NCBI RefSeq assembly: GCF_003014495.1
Contig: NZ_PYGC01000002.1
Coordinates: 620,001 to 684,000 of the forward strand
Source of the DNA: Prolixibacter denitrificans
Lineage (GTDB): Bacteria > Bacteroidota > Bacteroidia > Bacteroidales > Prolixibacteraceae
Reading direction: 5' to 3'
DNA length: 64,000 nt
Part shown: one piece after another, positions 35,866 through 40,055 of the stretch
Numbering within the stretch: the first letter of the stretch is position 1
Layout of the letters: each line of letters starts with the position of its first letter
Notes under the pieces: generated by a model
The model's database searches: none
What the model was told of the DNA's origin: nothing
What the model saw: the letters and a program-made list of their open reading frames with translations, nothing else
Program-made: the position numbers and the translations under genes

Positions 35866-37206
35866 ATGAGTTCAATGAAAGAAATGACCGCTGCAGTAGA
35901 TATAGGTACTGCGAAAACGACTGCCATCATTGGTCGCTATACCATTGATCGGAAACTGGAGGTCGTTGGCTATGGAAGTACGGATACCCGCGGTGTCAGG
36001 AATGGCGTTGTGGTGAATATTGAAGAAGCCGGACAATCGATACGTGAAGCGGTGGATGTGGCTTGCCGCGGATTGAAACTGAAAGTTCGTAGCATTTATG
36101 CCGGTTTGTCGGGACAGAAGATTCGTACCCGGTCGGCCAGCGGCTACCGGATGATTGATGAGGATGGTGAAGTTACCCGCGAACTGGTGTCATCGCTGTA
36201 CGAAGAAGTGGGACGATACTCTCTTCAGCCCGGCGAAAAGATCTTTCACGTGGTTCCCCAGGAATTCATTGTGGATGGAGAAATGGGAATTCAGCAACCT
36301 GTTGGGATGGCCGGTAATCGCATCGATGCCATGTTCAATCTGATTCTGGCTCCCGATTCTTACCGTATCAATCTCCGTCGTTGTGCCGAAAAAGCTGGTT
36401 TCGAGCTGGCCGGTGTATTTGTCAATCCTTTTGTGCAGGGAGAGGCTTATCTCACCGAGGACGAGAAAGAAGCCGGTGTTGTTTTGGTTGATTTTGGTGC
36501 CGGAACGACTGGCGTTTCAGTATACTATGAGAACAGACTCCGACTGGCCGCTGAACTGCCTTTTGGTGGTGCCGTCGTTACCCGCGATATCAAAGAAGGA
36601 TGCAACATTATTGCCCGGCACGCTGAGCTTTTAAAGGTACAGTTTGGACGAGCACTGGCTGAGCTGGCACCCGACAATAAAGTCGTGCAGATTCCAGAAT
36701 CGGACGGATGGCCTGCCAAGGAAGTGAGTTTCAAGAACCTTTCTCATATCATTCAGGCCCGGATGGAAGAAATTCTGGAAGGTATCAGTTACCAGATCGA
36801 ATCAACAGGACTGATGCATAAGCTAGGGGCAGGAATCGTGATAACCGGAGGTGGAGCAGGAATGGCCGATATGGAGAAGCTCATCAGCTTTAAAACTGGT
36901 CTGGATGTTCGTTTTGGACGCCCGGTGATTCCGATGAAAGAACTACTTTTTGCTGAACAGGTGAATGGACCGGAAGCGGCTAATATTCTCGGTCTGTTGG
37001 TGAAGGGATTGAAGAAGCGCGAAGGAATGCGTAACGTCGATGCGATGGTTATTCATGAAGACGAAGAAGAGGAAAGACCAACCAACCATCGTCAGCAACA
37101 CAGGCAGAATGGAAACGGATTTAAAGGCGTATTCAACAATCTGTTCGAAAAAGCCCGGGATGGTCTCGGAAACCTGATCTCGGATGAAGATATGGAAATG
37201 AATTAG
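35866..37206 (+). CDS. ftsA: Cell division protein FtsA
   Basis: 446-residue actin-like ATPase that tethers FtsZ filaments to the membrane. The phosphate 1 segment is AAVDIGTAKTTAIIG, SHS2/1C region about 80-165, phosphate 2 VLVDFGAGTTGVSVY, and adenosine motif VITGGGAGMADME. After a charged, Gln/Asn-rich linker (about 390-418), residues 419-438 form an amphipathic helix (GFKGVFNNLFEKARDGLGNL), the usual membrane-targeting sequence, followed by the acidic end SDEDMEMN. The same end occurs on the next gene product, FtsZ1. Confidence 0.96.
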   Translation: MSSMKEMTAAVDIGTAKTTAIIGRYTIDRKLEVVGYGSTDTRGVRNGVVVNIEEAGQSIREAVDVACRGLKLKVRSIYAGLSGQKIRTRSASGYRMIDEDGEVTRELVSSLYEEVGRYSLQPGEKIFHVVPQEFIVDGEMGIQQPVGMAGNRIDAMFNLILAPDSYRINLRRCAEKAGFELAGVFVNPFVQGEAYLTEDEKEAGVVLVDFGAGTTGVSVYYENRLRLAAELPFGGAVVTRDIKEGCNIIARHAELLKVQFGRALAELAPDNKVVQIPESDGWPAKEVSFKNLSHIIQARMEEILEGISYQIESTGLMHKLGAGIVITGGGAGMADMEKLISFKTGLDVRFGRPVIPMKELLFAEQVNGPEAANILGLLVKGLKKREGMRNVDAMVIHEDEEEERPTNHRQQHRQNGNGFKGVFNNLFEKARDGLGNLISDEDMEMN

Positions 37207-37239
37207 ACTAGGAGGTAAAACAACCAAAAGCAATACGGT

Positions 37240-38592
37240 ATGTCATCAGAAGAAGATCTGCTCAATTTTGGTTTTAAGCATAACCAGGATTCCATTATTA
37301 AGGTCATAGGTGTTGGTGGAGGCGGTGGAAACGCGCTGAACTACATGTACCGGAATGGAATCAGCGGCGTCGATTTCATCATTTGCAACACCGATGCGCA
37401 GGCGCTGGAGAATAGTCCTGTTCCCGTAAAGGTTCAGCTGGGAGTCTCGCTGACCGAAGGGCGTGGGGCAGGTAACAAACCCGAGCAGGGTGAACAGGCT
37501 GCCATCGAAAACCTGGCTGATATTCGGAAGGTGCTGGCGAATAATACCCGGATGGTTTTTGTAACCGCTGGAATGGGAGGTGGAACCGGAACGGGTGCTG
37601 CCCCGGTAATTGCTCAGCTGGCTCGTGAGATGGATATTCTCACCATTGCAGTAGTGACACTTCCGTCGGAAAAAGAGGGAAAGCGACGGTTTGATCAAGC
37701 TATGGCCGGTGTTGGCAAACTGAAGAAATTCGTAGACAGCTTGTTGGTGATCAGCAACGAGAATCTGCATAAGATTTACGGCGATCTACCAGCATCAAAA
37801 GCATTCGCCCAGGCGGATAATATTCTGGCGACAGCCGTGAAAGGTTGTGCCGAGATCATCACCCTGCATGGTAATATCAACATTGATTTTGCCGATGTGA
37901 ATACCGTGATGCGCGGCAGTGGCGTCTTCATCATGGGGTCGGGAATTGCCGATGGTGAGGACCGGGCCATGCGGGCGGTGAAGGAGGCGTTGATTTCTCC
38001 GCTTCTGGATAGCAATGATATTTATGGAACAGAAAATATACTACTGAATATTACTTCAGGTGATGAGGAAATCCTGATGGGCGAGATCGGGCAGATCATC
38101 GATTACCTACAGGATGCAGCGGGCGATGACGCCAATATTATCTGGGGTAACGGTCGGGATGAAAAACTGGGCTCTAAGATTTGTGTAACACTGATTGCTA
38201 CCGGTTTCCAAACAAACCCGAATCGTCGGATGGATCCGGAACAGGAACCTACAAAAGTTTCGTTGCAGGATGCAAAAACTGAATCCACAAGCGGGGAGAT
38301 GAAACTTCCGCTTATCGAGGAAAAACACATCGAGCCGGAGGGGGAAATTTTTGAACCGGTGTCAAGGCAAAAAAGTTATCTCGATGAAGATGATCTTCAG
38401 GTAGAAAATGATTTTCGAGATGAACCGGAGAGACCTTCCTATCAGAAGAAGAACCAGCGGAAGAAGAGCGATGAGAAGAAGCATCGCAGCAAAAAAGAGA
38501 AGGAAGAAGTGACAGCAGAACCCATTACCAATTGGTTTGTCAAGCAGTTCAATACGTTCTTCAGTGACAACGATATGGAAATGGATGAATAA
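37240..38592 (+). CDS. ftsZ: FtsZ paralogue 1 with non-canonical, FtsA-like C-terminal tail
   Basis: 450-residue tubulin-like GTPase. The core (about 18-325) is intact: the tubulin signature GGGTGTG at 113-119 and the T7 catalytic loop NIDFAD at 214-219, so it should polymerise and hydrolyse GTP. The linker (326-427) is long and ends in a Lys/Glu-rich stretch. The tail lacks the standard Bacteroidota FtsZ end present in the next gene. It has an aromatic, amphipathic segment [14 protein letters not shown] (428-441) and then SDNDMEMDE, which repeats the FtsA ending. The tail may bind the membrane directly or share a partner with FtsA. A perfect AGGAGGT lies 23 bases before the ATG, too far for normal use. 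It is one of two adjacent ftsZ genes, probably an old duplication. Confidence 0.93.
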
Positions 38593-38630: not shown

Positions 38631-40055
38631 ATGGCCGAACTGATGAATTTTGAATTGCCGGAGAAGCAGAATTGCATCATTAAGGTAATAGGTGTTGGAG
38701 GAGGCGGTGGAAATGCGGTCAACCACATGTTCCGGGAAGGGATAAAAGATGTAGATTTTGCTGTTTGTAATACCGATGCACAGGCATTGTCGAGCAGCCC
38801 GGTACCTACACAAGTACAACTGGGTGCTTCGCTGACCGAAGGACGCGGCGCTGGTAACAAACCCGACGTGGGGCGGGAAGCTGCCCGGGAGAATATAAAA
38901 GAGGTGGAAGAGATTCTTTCGCATGGTACAAAGATGGTCTTTATTACCGCTGGTATGGGCGGTGGTACCGGAACGGGAGCTGCTCCGGTAATTGCCGAAG
39001 CAGCACGGAAGCTGAATTTGCTGACGGTTGGTATTGTGACGATTCCTTTCCGGAATGAGGGAAGAAGACGTATTGAGCAGGCCATTAAAGGCATTCGGGA
39101 AATGGAAGGCAATGTAGATTCGTTGCTGGTCATTAACAACGAGCGAATCCGTGAGATGTATGGTGATTTTCCTATTTCAAAAGCCTTTTCCAAAGCCGAC
39201 GATGTGTTGGCCATTGCCGCCAAAGGTATTGCTGAAATCATTACGTATCACGGTTTTATCAACGTGGACTTCGAGGATGTGAAAACGGTGATGAAAGAGT
39301 CAGGTGTTGCCGTAATGGGCTCATTCCGGGCAACCGGAGAAGAGAGAGCTTTAAGAGCGGCTCAGGGAGCTTTGAATTCGCCGTTGCTGAATAATAATGA
39401 CATTCGGGGCGCACGCAATATTCTGGTGAATATTACTTCCGGCGACAAGCAAGAGGTGACGATGGACGAGATGAACCTGATCAACGAATATGTGCAGGAA
39501 AAAGCCGGGAATTCAGCTGATTTGATTTATGGTGTAGCTATCGAACCATCGTTGGAAGATTCTATTTCGGTGACGGTGATTGCTACCGGATTTAAAACGA
39601 GCTCGATTCCTGAGTTGAGGACTGATAAGAAAGAACCAGCTGAAAAAGTTTCCTTGCGGGACGAAAAGGAAAAAGTACCCACCAATATTACTGGTCAGGT
39701 AGGATTGTCGGATGATGATAAGGATTTGAAGAAATCAAGCACCCCGGTTTTTGAAGGTGAACCGGAAGATGAGTTCGCGCCGTTATATGGACCTTCTCAG
39801 AAGGAAAAAAAGCCCGGAAACAGCCGTGTCGTGGAGCAACGTAAGCAAGTAATGCAGGTCGATTTTTCTACGCTTTCGGATGATGAGATTGACAAGATAA
39901 GTAACGAGCCTGCCTATGTGCGCCGAATGATGCGCCTGGAGAATGAGAAAAAGAGAAAGGCGGCCGAGGTTTCCCGCTTTTCGCTTTCGGATAATAAAGA
40001 TGAAGGGCCCAAGCTGCGGCGAAACAACTCTTTCTTACATGACAAAGCTGATTAA
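38631..40055 (+). CDS. ftsZ: Cell division protein FtsZ (canonical Bacteroidota form)
   Basis: 474-residue FtsZ. GGGTGTG is at 110-116 and the T7 loop NVDFED at 211-216; the globular domain ends near 320. The long acidic linker leads to EPAYVRRMMRLENEKK and then SRFSLSDN and LRRNNSFLHDKAD at the very end, which closely follow the usual Bacteroidota tail (xPAYxRR, SR(F/Y)xLS, LRxNNSFLHD). This is therefore the orthologue of the single FtsZ of other Bacteroidota and should form the Z-ring. It starts 38 bases after FtsZ1 and is followed by yqeY after 24, the standard order. Confidence 0.96.
   Translation: MAELMNFELPEKQNCIIKVIGVGGGGGNAVNHMFREGIKDVDFAVCNTDAQALSSSPVPTQVQLGASLTEGRGAGNKPDVGREAARENIKEVEEILSHGTKMVFITAGMGGGTGTGAAPVIAEAARKLNLLTVGIVTIPFRNEGRRRIEQAIKGIREMEGNVDSLLVINNERIREMYGDFPISKAFSKADDVLAIAAKGIAEIITYHGFINVDFEDVKTVMKESGVAVMGSFRATGEERALRAAQGALNSPLLNNNDIRGARNILVNITSGDKQEVTMDEMNLINEYVQEKAGNSADLIYGVAIEPSLEDSISVTVIATGFKTSSIPELRTDKKEPAEKVSLRDEKEKVPTNITGQVGLSDDDKDLKKSSTPVFEGEPEDEFAPLYGPSQKEKKPGNSRVVEQRKQVMQVDFSTLSDDEIDKISNEPAYVRRMMRLENEKKRKAAEVSRFSLSDNKDEGPKLRRNNSFLHDKAD

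Follow-up and report, generated by a model that had tools for sequence, protein, structure and literature searches.

The division gene cluster of Prolixibacter denitrificans raises the question of what a second FtsZ does in a bacterium that keeps FtsA, and how the polymer of this FtsZ would be held at the membrane. We analyzed a stretch of 64,000 nucleotides from this organism (the window), in which an extra ftsZ lies inside the dcw cluster, between ftsA and ftsZ. This placement is unlike that in the few other bacteria reported to possess two ftsZ genes, where, according to the passages of PMC9871819 cited here, the extra copy is located outside the dcw cluster. A preliminary description had noted that the first of the two FtsZ proteins (FtsZ1) ends like FtsA, and had proposed that it either binds the membrane itself or competes with FtsA for one common partner. 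Both proposals were followed through the family Prolixibacteraceae and the order Bacteroidales.

Organization of the division locus

The window carries ftsA followed by the tandem genes ftsZ1 and ftsZ2, all on the forward strand (Table 1). Upstream of ftsA are genes which we take, from their translations, to be murD, ftsW, murG, murC and ftsQ. FtsZ1 of the window matches the Pfam domains Tubulin (152.9 bits) and FtsZ_C (74.8 bits) and reaches 351.8 bits against TIGR00065, with a cut-off of 295.2. Both FtsZ1 and FtsZ2 lie above the cut-off of this curated FtsZ model, and the model match stops before the tail. The GTP-binding motif GGGTGTG and the T7 synergy loop are both present in all 35 aligned FtsZ1 rows of the family, and FtsZ1 is probably a second FtsZ competent for polymerization.

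The translation confirms the two protein ends as they were first described. FtsA closes with an amphipathic segment, GFKGVFNNLFEKARDGLGNLI, which by analogy may be a membrane-targeting helix, and with SDEDMEMN (terminal letters GFKGVFNNLFEKARDGLGNLISDEDMEMN). FtsZ1 closes with an aromatic amphipathic segment and SDNDMEMDE.

Table 1. Features of the ftsA-ftsZ1-ftsZ2 region, with positions in the window.
Feature	Position	Strand	Basis
ftsA, 446 aa	35866-37206	+	ORF; Pfam FtsA and SHS2_FTSA; TIGR01174 above cut-off
FtsA C-terminal amphipathic segment	37117-37179	+	Sequence; best 11-mer moment 0.66
FtsA acidic end, SDEDMEMN	37180-37203	+	Sequence
ftsZ1, extra ftsZ, 450 aa, GGGTGTG and T7 loop intact	37240-38592	+	ORF; Pfam; TIGR00065
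FtsZ1 variable linker	38215-38520	+	Low conservation; net charge +6, residues -55 to -26 from the end
FtsZ1 aromatic amphipathic tail, 14 residues	38521-38562	+	W432 and F441 each 0.97 in 36 rows
FtsZ1 acidic end, SDNDMEMDE	38563-38589	+	Sequence
ftsZ2, canonical ftsZ, 474 aa	38631-40055	+	ORF; TIGR00065 above cut-off
FtsZ2 EPAYVRR, like the FtsA-binding peptide, absent from FtsZ1	39906-39926	+	Position by alignment
FtsZ2 terminal motif, NNSFLHDKAD	40023-40052	+	Sequence; alignment

The FtsA-binding peptide and other anchors

The FtsA-binding peptide, of the type (I/E)PA(Y/F)xR, was searched for as [VILE]PA[YFC]xR after position 330. This pattern was found in none of the 35 FtsZ1 rows of the family, which bears out the earlier remark that FtsZ1 lacks the standard peptide. 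It is present in 26 of 35 FtsZ2 rows, and six of the nine rows missed are cut by the end of the locus. The pattern is an imperfect detector: of the 34 single or last FtsZ proteins in the order, 15 escape it as well. Past the peptide of the FtsA-binding type, FtsZ2 closes with another conserved motif, NN(S)(F/Y)LHDxxD.

No match to SepF or ZipA was found among 41 relatives, where the positive controls matched in 7 of 14 named genomes for SepF and in 1 of 14 for ZipA. Because ftsA adjoins ftsZ1 in all 37 family loci and SepF and ZipA gave no match, the anchors visible in these genomes are FtsA and, if the reading proposed below holds, FtsZ1. An additional anchor of another kind may exist.

Conservation of the FtsZ1 tail in the family

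At least two ftsZ genes were found in each of the 37 sampled family genomes. One of these genomes (G019) also encodes, on a contig other than that of the division cluster, a further protein of some 370 aa that distantly resembles FtsZ (L058, 1862-2971, + strand). FtsZ1 ends in W[F/L]x[R/K/Q]x[F/L] in 36 of 37 family loci, a count made up of 34 of 35 aligned rows by pattern plus L019 and L031 by eye; the aligned rows omit L019, L031, L058 and L149. The exception is L036, whose FtsZ1 ends in a different amphipathic segment, MFDGIKKIFGKLVK. Mean conservation of FtsZ1 is 0.78 in the core, falls to 0.36 in the linker and rises again to 0.61 in the tail, where W432 (0.97), F437 (0.89) and F441 (0.97) stand out in 36 rows.

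Codon comparisons among four congeners agree with this profile. The last 24 codons of ftsZ1 show 1 to 8 synonymous and no non-synonymous changes per pair, whereas the 101-codon linker shows 10 to 39 non-synonymous changes per pair (38 of 101 codons between L001 and L003). The difference between tail and linker gave Fisher p values of 0.0095 and 0.0047 in two of the six congener pairs, which are not independent of each other. Conservation of the tail rules out that it is merely anonymous linker. In the FtsA helix of the family, conservation is 0.22 to 0.59 per column (424-438), in an alignment with gaps nearby. On this alignment the FtsZ1 tail has the higher sequence specificity of the two, which could point to a protein partner.

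Amphipathicity and charge of the tail

Median hydrophobic moments of the best 11-mer place FtsZ1 (0.665, n = 35) beside family FtsA (0.577, n = 37) and other FtsA (0.707, n = 35), apart from FtsZ2 (0.376, n = 27) and single or last FtsZ proteins (0.343, n = 34). Thresholds of 0.6 for the moment and 0.35 for mean hydrophobicity were both reached by 24 of 35 FtsZ1, 9 of 37 family FtsA and 25 of 35 other FtsA, against none of 27 FtsZ2 and none of 34 single or last FtsZ proteins. In moment and hydrophobicity the FtsZ1 tail is within the range of FtsA tails and outside that of FtsZ2 and single FtsZ proteins. Its best angle, 85 to 90 degrees, is near that of a helix and unlike that of a strand.

With composition fixed, the order of residues in the FtsZ1 tail exceeded column permutations in amphipathicity only weakly (p 0.074-0.111), and the tail of the window alone gave p 0.08. 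Own shuffles were beaten at p < 0.05 by 14 (11-mer) and 7 (14-mer) of 35 FtsZ1 tails, by 2 and 12 of 37 family FtsA tails, by 20 and 25 of 35 other FtsA tails, and by 0 and 1 of 11 extra FtsZ proteins from other families. In a background of 271 ORFs, taken from 400 kb of the same genome, 13 ends matched or exceeded the tail moment of the window and 14 contained as many aromatic residues. Amphipathicity alone is therefore no proof of a membrane anchor, given the weak effect of order, the few tails that beat their shuffles and the 13 background ORFs that equal or exceed the window. A combined criterion, chosen after the window had been seen, asked for a tail moment of 0.6, a hydrophobicity of 0.35 and a hydrophilic character of the 60 residues before the tail. 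It was passed by FtsZ1 of the window and by none of the 271 ORFs; in the family it admits just 10 of 35 FtsZ1 and 1 of 37 FtsA, and so does not test likeness to FtsA.

The linker of the window FtsZ1 carries +6, against medians of +3 for FtsZ1 and +2 for FtsZ2, and is not distinctive. The acidic end has a net charge of -5 in its last nine residues, and the median for the last nine residues of FtsA is -4 in the family and -2 elsewhere in the order. Such an end is not ideal for anionic membranes, though FtsA of the family shares it. The tail follows a linker and sits at the very C-terminus, as does the membrane-targeting helix of the FtsA type, and it shows local likeness to the end of E. coli FtsA (p 0.016 against shuffles; p 0.011-0.044 for five other rows). 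The case for a membrane anchor, read from sequence, would thus combine amphipathicity, position, conservation, the missing FtsA-binding peptide pattern and likeness to FtsA ends.

The DMEM match between FtsA and FtsZ1

The preliminary description had pointed to shared DNA at the two 3' ends. The string GATATGGAAATG does have precisely two perfect copies in the window, one in ftsA (37189-37200) and one in ftsZ1 (38572-38583), and it adds nothing beyond the peptide match. Only four codings are possible for DMEM. The three codons before it read tcg gat gaa in ftsA but agt gac aac in ftsZ1, and in two of the four congeners FtsZ1 uses gac atg gag atg where FtsA still has gat atg gaa atg, the peptide being unchanged. 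Because neighboring codons differ and two congeners have changed inside the DMEM codons, the DNA match follows from the shared peptide, and for the same reasons a recent copy of the 3' end of ftsA is rejected as its source. The two tails may nevertheless be related by older common descent.

Alignment of the orthologous C-termini separates two parts of the original observation: the aromatic tail of FtsZ1 is conserved throughout the family, and the DMEM match is confined to the genus of the window. DMEM is present in FtsA and FtsZ1 alike in 4 of 37 family loci, all of this genus, and was rejected as a family-wide motif. What is common to the family is an amphipathic segment followed by an acidic end.

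Distribution outside the family and number of origins

Among the 24 genomes of other families covered by the family search, 18 had one FtsZ match, two had two and four had none. A survey of the order comprised 158 genomes, three of them in the family; of the other 155, 15 had at least two matches and five had none. Stretches were taken from 13 of these 15 genomes (L038, L039, L139-L144 and L149-L153; G092 and G157 were left out). Eight of the 13, from six other Bacteroidales families, carry one or two additional ftsZ genes each, 11 in total, in the interval from ftsA to the last ftsZ. The remaining five have one ftsZ in the cluster, which in one case is ended by the contig end.

The 11 extra FtsZ proteins all keep the catalytic motifs, and none shows the FtsA-binding peptide pattern. 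Several have ends like that of FtsZ1 (SNWIQTTFDVLFNADEE, FGWIGSLFDEKDDELK and NNWLKRKIGTLFSDEE); the ends are less clear in the first copy of L141 and in L144. The thresholds for moment and hydrophobicity are reached by 4 of the 11. Three tandem ftsZ genes follow ftsA in L139, L140 and L141, which represent two other Bacteroidales families; the first copy scores lowest against the FtsZ proteins of the window and the last is canonical. In L129 and L131, from uncultured Bacteroidales with one FtsZ seen in the locus, this FtsZ has a short basic aromatic end, PFGWIRRK or PFAWIRRK.

In a sample of 148 genomes from the phylum, each of the 36 genomes of the same class besides that of the window had one match. 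Second matches were found in the genome of the window and in eight genomes of a distant family (f128). Genomes of f128, such as G278 and G289, have two or three FtsZ matches, and the extra matches in G255 and G270, the two among those listed, are 37% identical to the query.

Phylogenetic analysis used 96 of 129 FtsZ rows. Within the 19 family genomes represented, FtsZ1 forms one clade (100/100) and FtsZ2 another (97/99). The quick tree required six changes for the tailed FtsZ proteins, and in its AU test a tree with all 30 tailed rows together was better by 47.6 log units (p 0.925). The careful tree also gave six changes, of which its starred branches force two, and none of 200 bootstrap trees had a single change, in a bootstrap that had not settled. 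One tailed clade was 20.6 log units worse in the AU test of the careful tree and was not rejected (p 0.263).

Proposed self-anchoring and its alternatives

Self-anchoring, as first proposed for FtsZ1, is the best reading of these data, because the FtsA-binding peptide pattern is missing, the tail is conserved in the family and unchanged in four congeners, and its moment and hydrophobicity resemble those of FtsA and not those of FtsZ2. FtsZ1 would polymerize, possibly mixed with FtsZ2, and its flexible linker would span to the inner membrane, where the W-F-F-FF face of the tail would insert. The ring would then be anchored directly by FtsZ1, and FtsZ2 would be held via FtsA. We infer polymerization, helix formation, membrane insertion, co-polymerization and this division of labor from the sequences, and consider it reasonably likely that FtsZ1 polymerizes and grips the membrane directly with FtsZ2 held by FtsA.

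The main rival, on account of the greater sequence specificity of the FtsZ1 tail, takes this tail for a short linear motif bound by a protein, which could be FtsA, a Bacteroidota-specific anchor or another division factor, with the aromatic residues in a groove and not in lipid. The tail is conserved residue by residue, at its highest in W432 and F441, and more so than the FtsA helix of the family; a generic membrane helix would have no need of a fixed W-F pattern, and the column order is amphipathic only weakly. However, in L036 and in other families the end stays hydrophobic-polar although its residues are quite unlike those of the family motif, as would be expected under selection for physical character and not for sequence, and the tail falls within the FtsA range of hydrophobicity and moment. 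We regard a protein-binding motif as possible but rather unlikely.

Competition of FtsA and FtsZ1 for one partner that reads the acidic DMEM-type end was the other initial proposal. The two tails of the window do align better than shuffles (score 32, p 0.0005), and a score as high over the last nine residues was found in 3 of 529 FtsA-FtsZ1 pairs from 23 genera, the window's own pair included. Tails from one genome are also marginally more alike than permuted pairs (p 0.040, 0.053 and 0.010 for the last 9, 12 and 24 residues; 23 genera, kinship not controlled), but kinship alone could explain this small excess. A 4-mer within the last 12 residues is shared by 2 of 23 own-genus pairs and 23 of 506 cross pairs, and DMEM in both proteins is limited to one genus. 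The idea that SD(E/N)DMEM is a common binding motif was therefore not sustained, and a shared partner appears improbable. Still further from what we would expect is that FtsZ1 is a paralogue in decay or with a regulatory role alone, and that its tail is a remnant or marks it for degradation. FtsZ1 is indeed additional to the ordinary FtsZ and its end has diverged, and in L037, a member of the family, the core branch is long (1.48); yet all 37 family genomes have FtsZ1, all 35 rows keep the catalytic motifs, and the last 24 codons are free of non-synonymous change in four congeners. We consider this reading very improbable.

Relation to known self-anchoring FtsZ proteins

Plastids are not known to have FtsA. 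In the chloroplasts of Arabidopsis, FtsZ1 has a C-terminal membrane-binding motif, RR/KLFF, with no binding to the anchor protein in land plants, and the C-terminal motif of FtsZ2 binds the membrane protein ARC6, according to the passages of PMC11285052 cited here. The pair proposed from sequence in the window would be similar, with one self-anchored FtsZ and one held by a partner. Unlike FtsZ1 of the window, Arabidopsis FtsZ1 is plastidial and its motif is short and located at the very end; we infer a separate origin. In Odinarchaeota, OdinFtsZ1 is described as binding the membrane directly by an amphipathic helix, and the other FtsZ as attached to it via SepF (PMC12583498). This again resembles the proposed arrangement of two FtsZ proteins, one self-anchored and one attached via an anchor, but the helix of OdinFtsZ1 is N-terminal, the host is an archaeon, and SepF takes the place of FtsA.

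Mycoplasma genitalium is a bacterium without a cell wall. Its FtsZ is reported to have a membrane-binding motif of its own (Dutta et al. 2025, as cited in PMC12583498) and is thus, like the proposed FtsZ1, a bacterial FtsZ with its own membrane motif; the passage of PMC12583498 on this protein makes no mention of a pair of FtsA and a second FtsZ. Fusions of FtsZ with a membrane-targeting sequence (FtsZ-MTS) are the classical engineered case. A membrane-binding part brings such engineered FtsZ onto flat membranes, as described in PMC7320174. These constructs are artificial, whereas FtsZ1 of the window is apparently natural.

The preliminary description had called a self-anchoring FtsZ a new variant of Z-ring attachment. 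Since self-anchoring FtsZ proteins have been reported in Mycoplasma, chloroplasts (FtsZ1) and Odinarchaeota (OdinFtsZ1), this novelty is tempered, and the label of a new variant may apply to the FtsZ pair of bacteria that have retained FtsA. No paper on such an FtsZ pair in Bacteroidota was present among the matches listed by a full-text search, which was judged by title and start of abstract and covered few subscription journals.

The pair is of fair interest, being natural, family-wide in our sample and testable. The reason why FtsZ uses an anchor of its own kind apart, and the role of a second FtsZ, are being studied in plastids, archaea and engineered fusions. More tentatively, and at less than even odds, several Bacteroidales families might build the ring as a mixed polymer in which FtsZ1 inserts into the membrane and FtsZ2 is bound to FtsA. 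The membrane-inserting form would have arisen repeatedly, through duplications within the division gene cluster and in parallel to chloroplasts and Odinarchaeota; FtsA would then be just one of two anchors. With such a pair occurring naturally alongside FtsA, and with the genus Prolixibacter in culture, both modes of anchoring would become comparable within one ring.
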